Made by a program: the position numbers and the translations under genes
Notes under the pieces: model-generated
The model's input: only the letters and a program-made list of their open reading frames with translations
What the model was told of the DNA's origin: nothing
The model's database searches: none
NCBI GenBank assembly: GCA_902635895.1
Contig: CACPPV010000006.1
Location: 1 to 64,000 of the forward strand
DNA from: an uncultured Bacteroidota bacterium
Lineage (GTDB): Bacteria > Bacteroidota > Bacteroidia > Flavobacteriales > Flavobacteriaceae
Length of the DNA stretch: 64,000 nucleotides
Direction: 5' to 3'
Shown: piece by piece, positions 11,963 through 19,927 of the stretch
Layout: the number at the start of each line of letters is the position of its first letter
Position numbering within the stretch: position 1 is the first letter of the stretch

Positions 11963-12418
11963 CTAATAGGATCGATTTTTGGAATCTATCATAATGGTAA
12001 CCGGGCCATCATTTTCTATCTTAACCAGCATATCTGCTCCAAAAACTCCAGCATGTGGTTTTTTATTTAATTTATTTTCCATTAGAGTTAAAAACTGATC
12101 GTAAACTTTTTTTGCATAATCACTTTTAGCAGCTCTAATATAAGAGGGTCTATTTCCCTTTTTGGTCATTGCATGCAAAGTAAACTGACTAATTATTAAT
12201 ATTTCACCATCAATATCCACCAAGGATTTGTTCATAACCTTACCTTCATCATCAAAAATTCTTAACTGAGAAACTTTTTTACAAATCCAGTCAATATCAT
12301 CAAAATCATCACTGTCCTCAATTCCAATCAATAAAACAATTCCTTGATTTATTTTAGAAATTATTTGATTATCAACCTCCACACTTCCACTCTTAACTCT
12401 TTGAATCAGTGCCCTCAT
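11963..12418 (-). CDS. dtd: D-aminoacyl-tRNA (D-Tyr-tRNA) deacylase
   Basis: MRALIQRVKSGSVEV...SQFTLHA...RPSYIRAA...GVFGADMLVKIENDGPVTIMID. Confidence 0.95.
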   Translation of the reverse strand: MRALIQRVKSGSVEVDNQIISKINQGIVLLIGIEDSDDFDDIDWICKKVSQLRIFDDEGKVMNKSLVDIDGEILIISQFTLHAMTKKGNRPSYIRAAKSDYAKKVYDQFLTLMENKLNKKPHAGVFGADMLVKIENDGPVTIMIDSKNRSY

Positions 12419-12427
12419 AAATAAGAA

Positions 12428-13354
12428 TTATCTAAAATTATTTTCATCATCATTTAATATACTTAAGTAATTAACGTATCTGGATTCTGATATATCATTA
12501 GCTTCCAGTGCAGATTTTACGGCACAATTTGGTTCATTTAAATGTAAACAGTTATTAAACTTACAATTAGTACTTAATTTAGCAATTTCAACAAAATAAC
12601 CGCCTATTTCATTCTTTTCAATATCGATTAGTCCAAATCCTTTAATACCTGGACTATCAATTACTTTAGCTCCGTTATTAAAATCAAACATTTCTGCAAA
12701 GGTAGTAGTATGTTGTCCCTGTTCGTTTTGTTTTGAAATTTCAGAAGTTTTCAAGTTTAAGTTTGAATCTAAAGCATTCATCATACTACTTTTCCCAACA
12801 CCACTATGACCTGTAAATACAGAAACATTATTTTCCATAAATTTTTTAACTTTTTCAATATTTGTTTTTTGTTTAACTGAAATTTTTAAACATTGATATC
12901 CGATAGATGTGTAAGTCTTATATAACTTTTCAATATAATCAGTATCATCTTTGTCATAGGAATCGATTTTATTGAAAAGAATTATTGTATTAATTCCAAA
13001 AGATTCAGTTGACAAAAGAACTCTATCAATAAAAAGAGATGAAGTAGAAGGGTTTGAAGGTGTTACAAATAGAAAACAGTAATCGATATTAGATGCTAAT
13101 ATATGGCTCTGTTTAGACAGATTAACAGATTTCCTAATAATATAATTCTTTCTTGGTTCAATTTTAGTGATTACTCCTCTCTGTTCTTTTTCATCATTTA
13201 TTTCAAAAAAAACATAGTCACCAACTGCAACAGGATTAGTGCTTTTGATTCCCAAAGAACGAAATTTTCCTTTAATACTGCATTTATAAACCTCATGAGA
13301 ATCGGTATGAACATCGTACCAATTCCCTGTTGATTTATAAACTAATCCTTTCAT
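12428..13354 (-). CDS. rsgA: Ribosome small subunit-dependent GTPase A
   Basis: Circularly permuted GTPase: NKID, TGHSGVGKSSMMN, DSPGIKGFG, CxxxxC..HxxxxxC zinc site. Confidence 0.95.
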   Translation of the reverse strand: MKGLVYKSTGNWYDVHTDSHEVYKCSIKGKFRSLGIKSTNPVAVGDYVFFEINDEKEQRGVITKIEPRKNYIIRKSVNLSKQSHILASNIDYCFLFVTPSNPSTSSLFIDRVLLSTESFGINTIILFNKIDSYDKDDTDYIEKLYKTYTSIGYQCLKISVKQKTNIEKVKKFMENNVSVFTGHSGVGKSSMMNALDSNLNLKTSEISKQNEQGQHTTTFAEMFDFNNGAKVIDSPGIKGFGLIDIEKNEIGGYFVEIAKLSTNCKFNNCLHLNEPNCAVKSALEANDISESRYVNYLSILNDDENNFR

Positions 13355-13361
13355 TATGTTA

Positions 13362-14444
13362 TTAGCTATTGATAACTTTGTTTTGATTATTAATAGATTC
13401 TTGATGAATTGCTTTAAACATTCTTAAAACGAATTCTTCGCTTAATCCTTTTTTTTCACCCTCTAAAATCATATTACCTAAGATCTCATTCCATCTTTTA
13501 GTTTGCAGTACAGCAACATTTTTTTTCTTTTTCAATTCACCTATAGAAATAGCAACATTCATCCTTTTACCCAAAGTTTCAAGTAAACCGTGATCAATCA
13601 CATCTATTTGTGTTCTTAAAGTATTTAATTGATTCTTATAATCAGCCTCCTCGCTTGTTAAAGTTCTGATTTTTAAATCATTCATCATTTTAACAAGAAC
13701 AGATGGGGTTATTTGTTGGGCAGCATCACTCCAAGCATTATCAGGATCAATATGTGTTTCAATCATTAATCCATCAAAATTAAGATCAAGAGCTGTTTGT
13801 GAAATGTCTTGTAGAATATCTCTTCTTCCTGCAATGTGTGAAGGATCACAAATCAATGGTAAATCAGGAAACTTATTTTGAAGTTCAATTGGCAATTGCC
13901 ATTCTGGATTGTTTCTGTATTTAGATTTTTCGTAAGTTGAGAATCCTCTGTGAATAACACCAAGTTTTTTAATATTGGCAGAATATAATCTTTCAATTCC
14001 CCCAAGCCATAGTGAAAGATCAGGGTTTACTGGATTTTTTACTAAAACAATTTTATCAGTTCCATTTAATGCATCTGCAATTTCTTGAACTATAAACGGA
14101 CTAACAGTTGATCTAGCACCTATCCAAAGTACGTCAATATCATATTCAAGTGCTAATTTAACATGACTAGCATTCGCCACTTCAGTTGCAGTTAAAAGAC
14201 CTGTTTCTTTTTTTACTTTGTCCAACCATTTAAGACCAATTGCTCCAACTCCCTCAAACATCCCTGGTCGAGTTCTTGGTTTCCAAATTCCAGCTCTGTA
14301 GACTGATACGTCTGTATCTTTTAAATCGTGAGCAATTTTTAATACTTGATCTTCAGTTTCCGCACTACAAGGACCAGCTATTACCAACGGGTGTTTTAAA
14401 TTAAACTCATTAAGCCAAGTTCTCATTTCTTTTCTGTTTTCCAT
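13362..14444 (-). CDS. Bifunctional 3-deoxy-7-phosphoheptulonate synthase / chorismate mutase
   Basis: GPCSAETEDQVL..AGIWKPRTRPGMFEGVG (DAHPS) plus C-terminal chorismate mutase type II helices. Confidence 0.92.
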   Translation of the reverse strand: MENRKEMRTWLNEFNLKHPLVIAGPCSAETEDQVLKIAHDLKDTDVSVYRAGIWKPRTRPGMFEGVGAIGLKWLDKVKKETGLLTATEVANASHVKLALEYDIDVLWIGARSTVSPFIVQEIADALNGTDKIVLVKNPVNPDLSLWLGGIERLYSANIKKLGVIHRGFSTYEKSKYRNNPEWQLPIELQNKFPDLPLICDPSHIAGRRDILQDISQTALDLNFDGLMIETHIDPDNAWSDAAQQITPSVLVKMMNDLKIRTLTSEEADYKNQLNTLRTQIDVIDHGLLETLGKRMNVAISIGELKKKKNVAVLQTKRWNEILGNMILEGEKKGLSEEFVLRMFKAIHQESINNQNKVINS

Positions 14445-14446
14445 TT

Positions 14447-15292
14447 TTATTTTTTGTTTAATATTTCTTTAATTCGATTTGTATTGTTTAAAATTTTATT
14501 TAGTTCTTCATCATTTTCTTCAACAATAAGCTCTTTTAATAAATTTAAATTTGTTACATATTCATCAATTGCAGCCGCTAAATTAGTTTTATTTTGTAAG
14601 AAAATAGGAGTCCATGTATTAGGACTACTTTTTGCTAATCTAACTGTGGATTCGAAACCACTTCCAGCCAAATCAAAAATATTGTTCTCATTTTTTTCTT
14701 TTTCAATAACTGTTTTACCAAGCATAAATGAACTAACATGGGAAAGATGAGAGACATAGGCAACATGAACATCATGAGATTTTGGATCCATATAAATTGT
14801 TTTCATTTTTAAAGCATCAAAAATTTCAAGTGCTAATTTTCCAAGTTTTTTATCGGTTTTTTCAAATTCACATATTATGTTGGTTTTTCCTACATAAAGT
14901 CCTTTAATAGCTGCTGTAGGTCCTGAAAATTCAGTACCAGCCATTGGGTGTGCAGCTAAAAAATTAGATCTTTTCTCATGGTTTTTTAAGTACTTACATA
15001 TAGGTTCTTTGGTTGAACCAACATCAAAAACTAAAGTATTATCTCCAACAACATCAAGAACCTTATCAATTAAACCAAATATGTTATTTACTGGAACTGA
15101 TATCAAAATTAAATCCATTTTATTTAGATCCTTGTAATCGATTTTATGATCAATTAATCCTAGCTCAAGAGCTTCATCTAAATTTTTACTTGAAGAATCT
15201 ATTCCAAAAATTTCAGAATTAGGAAATGGTTTTTTTATATCAAGAGCAAATGAACCTCCCATTAATCCTAAACCAATTATACCTACTTTCAT
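14447..15292 (-). CDS. tyrA: Prephenate dehydrogenase
   Basis: GLGLMGGSFALD Rossmann motif; HPMAGTEFSG; SHLSHVSSFML. Confidence 0.9.
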   Translation of the reverse strand: MKVGIIGLGLMGGSFALDIKKPFPNSEIFGIDSSSKNLDEALELGLIDHKIDYKDLNKMDLILISVPVNNIFGLIDKVLDVVGDNTLVFDVGSTKEPICKYLKNHEKRSNFLAAHPMAGTEFSGPTAAIKGLYVGKTNIICEFEKTDKKLGKLALEIFDALKMKTIYMDPKSHDVHVAYVSHLSHVSSFMLGKTVIEKEKNENNIFDLAGSGFESTVRLAKSSPNTWTPIFLQNKTNLAAAIDEYVTNLNLLKELIVEENDEELNKILNNTNRIKEILNKK

Positions 15293-16440
15293 AAGTCGAT
15301 TCTTTTTAGTGATTCAACAATTTTACTTTCATCGACACATAAGGAAAATCTAACATAGCCCTCCCCATTAGAGCCAAAAATGGTTCCAGGTGCAATAAAA
15401 ATATTTTTTTCTAACAATAAATTTTCAATAAAACTTTCAGCACAAGGATTTTTACCAGGTAGCTTTGCCCATACAAATAATCCTTTTGAATTTCTATCAT
15501 ATGAACAATTTAATTTATCTGCAATTTTCCAAATTAATTCTCTTCGTTTTGAATAAACTTCATTTAAATTTTCAAACCATGTGTCACTTAAATTTAAAGC
15601 TGAAATAGCCCCTTTTTGAATTCCATAGAAAATTCCTGAATCCATATTACTTTTTACCTTTAAAACTCTTGAAATATTTAAATCAGATCCCACTAACATT
15701 CCTACTCTCCATCCAGACATATTAAAAGATTTACTAAGAGAGTTTAACTCCATCGCTACATCTTTTGAACCATTTACTTTTAATATACTTAGATAATCAT
15801 TATTTAAAATAAAACTGTAAGGATTGTCATTTACAATTAAAATACTATTTCTTTTAGCAAACTCTATCAGTTCTTCATATTGGTTCACATCAACAGATGC
15901 ACCAGTAGGCATATGAGGATAATTCACCCACATTAACTTTACTTTTGAAAGGTCACTTTTTTCTAATTCAGTAAGATCTGGAAACCAATTGTTACTTTCA
16001 TTTAGGTCATAAAATCTTGGCTTAGCCTCAACCAAATTAGTGACCGAAAAATAAGTAGGGTATCCTGGGTTTGGAATTAATACTTCATCACCAGGGTTTA
16101 AAAAAGCAAGTGAAATATGCATAATTCCCTCTTTAGAACCCATTAATGGAAGCACCTCATTTTCTGAGTTTAAGTCAACTTGGAAATAATTTTGATAAAA
16201 CTTTGATATGGATTTCCTAAATTCTGGTAATCCCTGATAGCTTTGATATTTATGAGCATTTTGATCTGATAAGCTATTTTTTATTTCATCAATCACATTT
16301 TTTGAAGGATACAAGTCTGGACTTCCAATACCCATATTAATTACAGGCTTACCAGAGCTTATCATTTTAGAAACCTCTCTTAATTTTTTTGAGAAGTAAT
16401 ATTCTTCAACAGTATTTAATCTTTTCGAATGTGTAATCAT
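15289..16440 (-). CDS. PLP-dependent aminotransferase (class I/II, putative aromatic aminotransferase)
   Basis: NDNPYSFI, SLSKSFNMSGWRVGMLVG PLP-lysine motif; within aromatic operon. Confidence 0.88.
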   Translation of the reverse strand: MITHSKRLNTVEEYYFSKKLREVSKMISSGKPVINMGIGSPDLYPSKNVIDEIKNSLSDQNAHKYQSYQGLPEFRKSISKFYQNYFQVDLNSENEVLPLMGSKEGIMHISLAFLNPGDEVLIPNPGYPTYFSVTNLVEAKPRFYDLNESNNWFPDLTELEKSDLSKVKLMWVNYPHMPTGASVDVNQYEELIEFAKRNSILIVNDNPYSFILNNDYLSILKVNGSKDVAMELNSLSKSFNMSGWRVGMLVGSDLNISRVLKVKSNMDSGIFYGIQKGAISALNLSDTWFENLNEVYSKRRELIWKIADKLNCSYDRNSKGLFVWAKLPGKNPCAESFIENLLLEKNIFIAPGTIFGSNGEGYVRFSLCVDESKIVESLKRIDL

Positions 16441-17258
16441 TTCATTTGATTTTTATAAACTCCCAAAACCTTGAGAGACTCGGCCTCATTTTTTATAATA
16501 TTAACTGCATTGTTAAAATCGTCTAAGGAAATAAACGTTGTATCAACAAAAAATGAATATTTCCACGGTATTTCAATAATTGGAAGCGATTGAATTTTAG
16601 TAAGATTTAAATTATATTTTTTTAAAATGTTTAAAACTAAAGCTAGGCTACCTGTCTCATGACTTAAAGAAAATTTTAATGAAGCTTTATTTAACAACCC
16701 ACCATTTTTGATTTTATTTTTAGAAACAATCACAAATCGAGTTTGGTTTTTCTTTATTGTTTGAATGTTCTTTGAGATGATATCCAAATCATAAATTTTA
16801 GCAGCTTGAACACTTGCAACAGCTGCAGTATCTTTAACATTATTTTCTGAAATTCTTTTAGCAACTTCTGCTGTATCTTTTTCCTCAACCAAAGTTATAT
16901 GCGGGTATTTTTTAAAAAATCTTTTACATTGAAGTAATGCCATTGGATGAGAAGAAACATACTTTATATCTTCTATTTTTGATCCAGGAAGAACCATAAG
17001 CTGATGGTTAATATTAATAAAATATTCACCAACAATATACAAGTCATGAGAATCAATCAAAGCGTAATTTGGAATAATAGATCCAGCTATTGAATTTTCA
17101 ATTGCCATAACTCCAAATTCAGACTCACCTTTATTAACGGACAAAGCCAAATCATCAAAAGATAAAAACTCATTTACAATTAATGACTTTCCAAAATAAT
17201 CTTTTGCCACTTGATCGTGATATGATCCCTTGATTCCTTGAATCCCAACTGTTTTCAT
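16437..17258 (-). CDS. pheA: Prephenate dehydratase
   Basis: GIQGIKGSYHDQVAKDYFG..., NQTRFVIVSK, C-terminal ACT domain (SLSHETGSLALVLNILKKYNLNLTKIQSLPI). Confidence 0.93.
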   Translation of the reverse strand: MKTVGIQGIKGSYHDQVAKDYFGKSLIVNEFLSFDDLALSVNKGESEFGVMAIENSIAGSIIPNYALIDSHDLYIVGEYFININHQLMVLPGSKIEDIKYVSSHPMALLQCKRFFKKYPHITLVEEKDTAEVAKRISENNVKDTAAVASVQAAKIYDLDIISKNIQTIKKNQTRFVIVSKNKIKNGGLLNKASLKFSLSHETGSLALVLNILKKYNLNLTKIQSLPIIEIPWKYSFFVDTTFISLDDFNNAVNIIKNEAESLKVLGVYKNQMK

Positions 17259-17266
17259 ATTTATTT

Positions 17267-17295
17267 AAAAAAAAAGTCCTGATTTTATCAGGACT
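17267..17295 (-). terminator. Attenuator terminator in pheA leader
   Basis: Minus strand AGTCCTGAT-AAA-ATCAGGACT followed by TTTTTTTT(T); 9-bp stem directly before pheA start. Confidence 0.9.
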
Positions 17296-17319
17296 CATTA
17301 AAATATATTTTATTAATTA

Positions 17320-17397
17320 TTATATATACAAAAGTCCTGTTTTGTCTTCATAATAGAAGAAAAAATAAAAGTTTTGAAAAAAATAATTGCGTTTCAT
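17320..17397 (-). CDS. Phe/Tyr-rich leader peptide MKRNYFFQNFYFFFYYEDKTGLLYI (25 aa) of pheA attenuator
   Basis: Manual reverse-complement translation; 10 of residues 5-16 are Phe or Tyr; followed by antiterminator and terminator elements. Confidence 0.88.
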   Translation of the reverse strand: MKRNYFFQNFYFFFYYEDKTGLLYI

Positions 17398-17412
17398 AAA
17401 AATTTTAAGCGG

Positions 17413-17443
17413 TAAATGTAATATTAGTTGAGATAAAAACAAA
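17413..17443 (-). promoter_or_regulatory. Bacteroidetes-type promoter for the aromatic operon (TTTG-N19-TACATTTA)
   Basis: Minus strand TTTG (17443-17440), 19-nt spacer, TACATTTA (17420-17413), one mismatch to TAnnTTTG. Confidence 0.65.
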
Positions 17444-17463: not shown

Positions 17464-18453
17464 TTAAAAATTAGAATCTAAAACTTTTTCTCTTTTGAAA
17501 ACTGAGCTCAAAAGTTTATTAATTTGATCAAACTCAATTAAAAATGCATCATGACCATGAACAGACTTAATTGTTTTAAAAAATATATTGTCCTTAATTC
17601 TACAGGCTTTATAAAATGTGTCTCTATTTTGATAATCTGTAAAAAACAAATCAGAATCAACTGAGACAATAAATATGTTTCCTTTTATCTTTGAAATAAT
17701 ATCTTCAAATTTAATCTTTCCTCCTTGAGTAATATCAATGGTTGAAAGCAAGTGGTTCATTAACTTATATGAACTTAATTGAAACCTTTCTTGTAATTTT
17801 TTTCCGTGATGGAGTAGCCAACTTTCAACATTAAAAATTTTAGCATCCTCATTTATAGATCTATCAAATTTCTTTTGAAAAGAAAGAGGAGATCTGTAAC
17901 ACAACATAGCATGAATTCTTGCATCATGAACTGGATTTGATGAATTATTTAAAATTTGTTTTTGTAATCTAGTATTAGCTAGTAACCAGTCGCTAGATTT
18001 CCAATCTGAAGCAATTGGAATATAATTTTCTGAAATGTTTGGAGATATTGATGCCATTTCCCACACTAATCCCCCTCCTATAGAGCCTCCAACAATAGCA
18101 AACAACTTTTCAATTTTTAGCTTCTCAAGTCCAATTATAAACATTTTTGCAATGTCTCTAAGAATCAAACTTTCATAATTGTCAATTAATTTACCGTCGT
18201 AACCGTTTCCTGGAAAATTAAAAGCTAAAACAGTAAAATAGTTAGTATCAATTAATTTTTTATCACCAACAATTGAATTCCACCAACCTTTACTTCCACT
18301 AACAGATGAGTTTCCTGTAAGAGCATGATTAATTAAAACAATTGGACTCTCTCCTATTGGTTGTCCAAACAATTCATAAGTAAGCTCAATATCAAAATTG
18401 GTTCCATCAAAGGAGCTAAAATTTTCGATATTGAGCTTATTTAAATTAATCAT
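17464..18453 (-). CDS. metX: Homoserine O-acetyltransferase-like alpha/beta hydrolase
   Basis: NHALTGNSSVSG, GGSIGGGLVWEM nucleophile elbow, GHDAFLIE; directly downstream of metY. Confidence 0.85.
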   Translation of the reverse strand: MINLNKLNIENFSSFDGTNFDIELTYELFGQPIGESPIVLINHALTGNSSVSGSKGWWNSIVGDKKLIDTNYFTVLAFNFPGNGYDGKLIDNYESLILRDIAKMFIIGLEKLKIEKLFAIVGGSIGGGLVWEMASISPNISENYIPIASDWKSSDWLLANTRLQKQILNNSSNPVHDARIHAMLCYRSPLSFQKKFDRSINEDAKIFNVESWLLHHGKKLQERFQLSSYKLMNHLLSTIDITQGGKIKFEDIISKIKGNIFIVSVDSDLFFTDYQNRDTFYKACRIKDNIFFKTIKSVHGHDAFLIEFDQINKLLSSVFKREKVLDSNF

Positions 18454-19751: not shown

Positions 19752-19821
19752 TTTTATATATTTAATTATTAATAAATTAAATTTATAATTAGATGTGATT
19801 TGACGTTAAATAGATGCGAAG

Positions 19822-19876
19822 CTACTGCTTTAGCACTTTTTTAAAGAGGTTGCAATCAGTCAAATCGTTCCTCTAA
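19822..19876 (-). ncRNA. SAM-II (SAM/alpha, metA-motif) riboswitch
   Basis: Minus strand AGAGGAACGATTTGACTGATTGCAACCTCTTTAAAAAAGTGCTAAAGCAG; P1 AGAGG/CCTCT, core GATTTgACyGATTGCAA and GCTAAA matching the SAM-II pseudoknot pattern; upstream of metYX. Confidence 0.85.
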
Positions 19877-19927
19877 CAATAAATTATGGATCAAAATTAT
19901 AATTAAAAATAATTATAACAAAAAAAA

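Follow-up and report, generated by a model that had tools for sequence, protein, structure and literature searches.

Most of what is known about attenuation, a textbook mechanism, comes from Proteobacteria, and in the thr and ilv operons of Escherichia coli a single leader carries codons for several products of the pathway. In the Bacteroidia, translation is started largely without Shine-Dalgarno sequences (see also PMC9723704). Among the closest described counterparts of the element reported here is the pheL/pheA attenuator of E. coli and Salmonella (RF01859). Both have a leader peptide rich in Phe, antiterminator and terminator structures that exclude each other, and a prephenate dehydratase gene downstream. 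The present element differs from pheL/pheA in that Phe and Tyr codons are mixed, with Trp codons added in many genera, in that its putative pause hairpin adjoins segment 2 (the 5' strand of the antiterminator) but does not pair with it, and in that the operon includes tyrA and a DAHP synthase gene. When searched with the Rfam covariance model for Phe_leader (RF01859), the leader scored 18 bits, below the gathering threshold of 55. Relative to the multi-amino-acid attenuators of thr and ilv, the distinguishing features are the aromatic amino acids and the interleaving of Phe and Tyr codons. The hisL and trpL attenuators of enteric bacteria share with our element leader codons and the competition of segments 2:3 versus 3:4, and their pause hairpin has a putative equivalent in it. 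However, the pause-type hairpin here is unlike the enteric 1:2 hairpin because it spares segment 2, leaving it unoccupied, and in an untranslated leader read-through would tend to prevail.

The pause stem of E. coli hisL is followed ~10 nt further on by a YG pause site (PMC9291695), the same spacing as is predicted for the pheA leader in this study. Closer to the locus, a 2021 transcriptome of Flavobacterium psychrophilum described structured 5' elements before pheA and hisG that are common to Flavobacteriaceae, as well as clues for leader-peptide attenuation at amino-acid operons (PMC9723704). The pheA element of that study, which was not among the loci that we compared, precedes the same gene in the same bacterial family, and the main text presents it without a leader sequence, codon content or pairing. 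Attenuators had also been surveyed comparatively in earlier work by Lopatovskaya and colleagues, which PMC4833913 cites. Given the published pheA 5' element, the proposal in the initial annotation of our locus, that enteric-style attenuation operates in a Bacteroidetes operon, is not wholly surprising; the logic itself stands, except that the pause-type hairpin occupies another position than the enteric one, adjoining segment 2 without sequestering it. The mechanism is a classical one, and what the present analysis adds is explicit leader peptides, covariation, geometry, the pause hairpin, mixed aromatic codons and the spread through much of the class. An uncharacterised 5' element before pheA is thereby turned into a specific, testable model, and ~150 predicted leader peptides are supplied.

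Anatomy of the pheA leader and its operon

Direct reading of the minus strand between metX (end 17464) and pheA (start 17258) revealed, in order, a promoter, a leader ORF and a terminator. The promoter is of the Bacteroidetes sigma type, TTTG-N19-TACATTTA (17413..17443, minus strand; TTTG at 17443-17440 and TACATTTA at 17420-17413), and its second box ends 15 nt upstream of the leader ATG. Against the consensus TTTG...TAnnTTTG it scores 5/6, and scores of 5-6 were obtained for 52 of 76 relatives versus 62 of 1520 shuffled regions. The leader peptide ORF (17320..17397, minus strand; 25 codons plus stop) encodes MKRNYFFQNFYFFFYYEDKTGLLYI, in which residues 5-16 form a run of 10 Phe/Tyr residues, 6 Phe and 4 Tyr. 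Among ATG ORFs of 12-45 codons with at least 8 F/Y per 12 residues, it is unique on either strand of the window, that is, the whole 64-kb stretch of DNA that was analysed, and when the 205-nt metX–pheA gap was shuffled 5000 times with dinucleotides preserved, an equal Phe/Tyr run arose just twice. Differences between seven close leaders fall mostly at third codon positions, yet non-synonymous codon differences outnumber synonymous ones, so these counts do not by themselves prove that the ORF is coding. Its coding status rests on the retained Phe/Tyr run, and its translation is predicted.

The intrinsic terminator, formed by segments 3 and 4 (17274..17296, minus strand), reads GAGTCCTGAT-AAA-ATCAGGACTT-T7, with AAA as the loop and the T tract at 17273-17267. 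It is the sole terminator-like site within 1.1 kb (shuffle mean 0.3), and its stem ends 15 nt before the pheA start. Segment 2, CAGGACTT (17332..17339, minus strand), lies inside the leader ORF, 10 nt past the last Tyr codon, and the antiterminator duplex that it forms with GAGTCCTG (17296-17289), the 5' arm of the terminator, comprises 8 bp with an energy of -12.1 kcal/mol. Within the antiterminator loop an AU hairpin, ATATAT...ATATAT (17303..17327, minus strand), the sequence of which is conserved within the genus, draws segments 2 and 3 towards each other in the predicted fold. The locus therefore combines a short ORF rich in codons for the products with an intrinsic terminator between that ORF and the first gene and, in silico, with an exclusive antiterminator whose availability depends on the position of the ribosome. 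The initial annotation had proposed the same promoter, 25-codon ORF and terminator, and all three were borne out: the promoter matches every consensus base except the last, translation returned the 6 Phe and 4 Tyr at residues 5-16, and the hairpin with the AAA loop lies between leader ORF and pheA as described. The antiterminator segment had been placed at 17340-17333; the pairing with the terminator 5' arm stood, but the true position is one base off and the pairing contains one G-U.

The first controlled gene is pheA, which encodes prephenate dehydratase (16437..17258; PF00800), and it is followed on the minus strand by genes for a class I/II aminotransferase (15289..16440; PF00155), prephenate dehydrogenase, TyrA (14447..15292; PF02153, PF20463), and a DAHP synthase fused to chorismate mutase (13362..14444; PF00793, PF01817). 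Because the gene ends overlap or nearly touch, these four genes very probably constitute one operon, and the encoded enzymes fit the amino acids of the leader codons, Phe and Tyr. Behind the operon, on the same strand and after gaps of 7 and 9 nt, are rsgA and dtd (11963-13354; PF02580, D-Tyr-tRNA deacylase), and this tRNA-Tyr proofreading gene may be under the same Phe/Tyr attenuator. On the other side, a SAM-II riboswitch (19820-19879, minus strand; 74.7 bits) was identified upstream of metY-metX, and two cis-regulated amino-acid operons are thus arranged in tandem.

Conservation and covariation in related genomes

Of 150 related genomes, 106 proved to have a PheA homologue, and the DNA upstream of pheA was inspected in 87 cases. 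The initial annotation had named conservation of the leader upstream of pheA, together with compensatory changes in the 2:3 and 3:4 stems, as checks of its proposal, and both support it. The Phe/Tyr-rich leader ORF with its run, the antiterminator and the terminator precede pheA in 77 of the 87 relatives with readable upstream DNA, and in three further regions the leader is present with a hairpin that falls narrowly below the terminator filter. In the remaining seven of the 87 no leader was found, at least one of these cases being explained by a contig end. All 77 leaders have at least three Phe and at least two Tyr residues, and 35 of them have Trp too. Leader and terminator are present in all 80 of the named Flavobacterium-type loci, including that of a Flavobacterium johnsoniae strain (locus L255), whose leader is MAANRFYFSNNFYFFFSRSQDCAMVI. 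According to a covariance model of the element, genomes of the window's genus each have one strong copy.

Across the leaders of the relatives, the segment complementary to the terminator 5' arm begins a median of 11 nt past the Phe/Tyr run, and this spacing is tight (sd 1.9 nt) whereas the position of the stop codon is loose (sd 7.4). Pairs of a leader with its own arm have a mean energy of -11.0 kcal/mol versus -7.5 once arms are swapped; none of 5000 permutations did as well, and control 30-nt regions of the same leaders, upstream of and inside the run, gave -2.3 to -2.9. The permutation test carries no correction for genome relatedness, a concern that is eased by the recurrent triple changes described below and by a version restricted to one representative for each of 28 distinct arm cores, in which the values were -12.0 for own and -7.5 for swapped pairs (0 of 20000). 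Segment 2, the 5' arm and the 3' arm switch jointly between G-C-G and A-T-A at two stem columns (37/24 and 51/18 leaders), with rarer types of triple change at other stem columns, and the residues encoded at the covarying segment differ (TGL, NET, RGTG, QDC). This pattern indicates that past the Phe/Tyr run it is the RNA pairing that is retained, not the peptide.

The same pattern bears on the idea that the leader acts as a TnaC-like arrest peptide, with free Phe or Tyr as its signal rather than tRNA charging. Segment 2 lies within the ORF, and the RNA switch would be identical for any ribosome that stalled no later than the end of the run. However, the residues after the run are highly variable (EDKTGLLYI, SKRNETLYV, SRSQDCAMVI, ERGTGLL) and what is kept is the count of Phe/Tyr codons; in addition, TnaC-like control amounts to induction in excess, which would be illogical for a biosynthetic operon. 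Since the post-run residues follow the RNA pairing, we regard an arrest peptide as very unlikely.

It is slighter still in probability that the hairpin is merely the end-of-operon terminator of metY-metX and the Phe/Tyr ORF a chance product of T-rich DNA. The metX gene does lie upstream on the same strand, ending at 17464, and the region around the leader is T-rich, but shuffles almost never yield such a Phe/Tyr ORF, and a hairpin situated 15 nt before pheA leaves no space for another promoter. Moreover, the element is also kept in relatives in which the closest ORF upstream runs in the opposite direction, 42 of the 77, and in eight relatives it is still there next to a divergent upstream ORF of at least 299 codons. 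The divergent upstream genes in so many relatives, together with the covariation of leader and stems, lead us to exclude this explanation for practical purposes. Just as improbable is control of the terminator by a metabolite riboswitch, a T-box or an RNA-binding protein with the ORF incidental, for although the SAM-II riboswitch ~2.4 kb upstream on the same strand means that riboswitches are used in this genome, no Rfam family, T-box and metabolite riboswitches included, reached threshold in the leader, the conserved structures found were the pause hairpin, the antiterminator and the terminator, and the Phe/Tyr run is retained along with its spacing from segment 2. The reading that we favor, and which we consider highly likely, is that the element is a ribosome-mediated transcription attenuator, its anatomy, conservation, covariation and codon-exact geometry having been established by sequence analysis.

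A putative pause hairpin and the modelled position of the ribosome

Immediately before segment 2 is a pause-type hairpin (17340..17365, minus strand; -5.4 kcal/mol), in which the last Phe/Tyr codons of the run (UUY and UAY) are base-paired to the purine-rich sequence that follows directly. The stability of this hairpin exceeds that of dinucleotide shuffles in 71 of the 77 leaders and that of resamples with synonymous codons in 72; Wilcoxon p-values for it take no account of how closely the genomes are related and are not read as probabilities. The 3' end of the hairpin adjoins segment 2 with a median gap of 0 nt. A predicted RNA polymerase pause dinucleotide, TG (17329..17330, minus strand), which is a partial match to the Y-1G+1 consensus, is located ~10 nt past the hairpin. 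A YG peak at offset 19/20 was seen in 42 of the 77 leaders, being partly confounded by codon phase and with G-10 not conserved. By analogy with the enteric leaders, the conserved hairpin and the TG would make RNA polymerase pause and so keep it in step with the ribosome.

To model the switch, we folded the RNA that is free 3' of the ribosome as a snapshot, at the stage when transcription has passed the terminator 5' arm and loop but has yet to reach the 3' arm. In this snapshot fold the 5' arm pairs upstream with a probability of 0.8 for an A site anywhere through Tyr16, the last codon of the run, and this value drops to 0.49 with the A site at codon 17, falls to 0.11 one codon later and has reached 0.07 by the stop codon. 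The mean over the 77 leaders shows the drop in antiterminator availability at the same place. Functionally, the strongest evidence comes from the codon-exact fit of the run end, the ribosome edge and segment 2 in this model. When instead the complete leader was folded at equilibrium with a ribosome at each codon, the terminator was always favored, stalled ribosomes included, and that approach was dropped as a model of the switch. As the full-leader equilibrium invariably favors the terminator, antitermination, as read from the snapshot before the 3' arm, must be kinetic in this model.

The pause hairpin leaves segment 2 free, and the window leader without any ribosome is therefore predicted to favor the antiterminator (0.79; the mean of the relatives is 0.51). 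It follows that the element would be without the default termination that the 1:2 protector provides in E. coli trp.

On these grounds we envisage the following sequence of events. Transcription would start ~10 nt upstream of the leader ATG, and RNA polymerase would make the Phe/Tyr run and segment 2 and then probably pause at the TG behind the pause hairpin while the ribosome catches up. If Phe-tRNA or Tyr-tRNA is scarce, the ribosome would stall within the run with its 3' edge just short of segment 2, which would be free to pair with the terminator 5' arm, so that the polymerase would continue into pheA and the aminotransferase, tyrA and DAHP synthase/chorismate mutase genes. If both tRNAs are plentiful, the ribosome would advance over segment 2, the 5' arm would join its own 3' arm and transcription would terminate 15 nt before pheA. 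Both the charging of the tRNAs as the signal and the direction of the response are presumed here. The stall and read-through logic had been put forward in the initial annotation; it agrees with the modelled collapse of antiterminator availability one to two codons past the last Phe/Tyr codon, and its sensing of aminoacyl-tRNA is the part that we infer.

Distribution beyond the family and other leaders

In a phylum-wide sample, Phe/Tyr-rich leader ORFs were found in all 19 genomes newly sampled from other Bacteroidia families and in four of 20 genomes outside the Bacteroidia, a matching terminator being detected in some but not all of them; in the other 16 of these 20 there was no Phe/Tyr-rich leader ORF. 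Three loci from one genus of another Bacteroidia family (L112, L117 and L118) have no leader before pheA. In these, pheA lies directly behind an aroA-like coding region, which runs straight into it, and no leader would thus be expected; judging from this arrangement, pheA regulation has moved or been lost in that genus. The sequence evidence points to retention of a single aromatic attenuator by Flavobacteriaceae and by most of the other Bacteroidia families sampled. Tentatively, we raise the possibility of an attenuator found throughout the class Bacteroidia and integrating the aromatic amino acids (Phe and Tyr in every case, Trp codons in about half of the leaders), in which a pause hairpin made from the regulatory codons is stacked on the antiterminator without competing with it and the untranslated leader reads through.

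Other amino-acid operons of the genus were also surveyed. In a rough scan of the genus, neither ilvD nor leuA was preceded by a clear leader. In the same genome as the window, hisG (locus L162, contig C8) lies behind a histidine leader, MKTIRNHHHHFNFLKRAM, and then the terminator AAGCCCGTTTG-TTAATT-CAAACGGGTTT, and this architecture recurs in other genomes of the genus. Likewise, a tryptophan leader, MKTNLNTNWWRQLNSN, with a terminator precedes trpE (locus L178, contig C31 of the same genome). Since the genus has his and trp leaders as well, leader-peptide attenuation looks like a general strategy in it. At the trpE locus, base pairing would be possible between GTCGATAA, just past the leader, and TTATCGAC within the terminator, and WW-containing leaders were observed in relatives.
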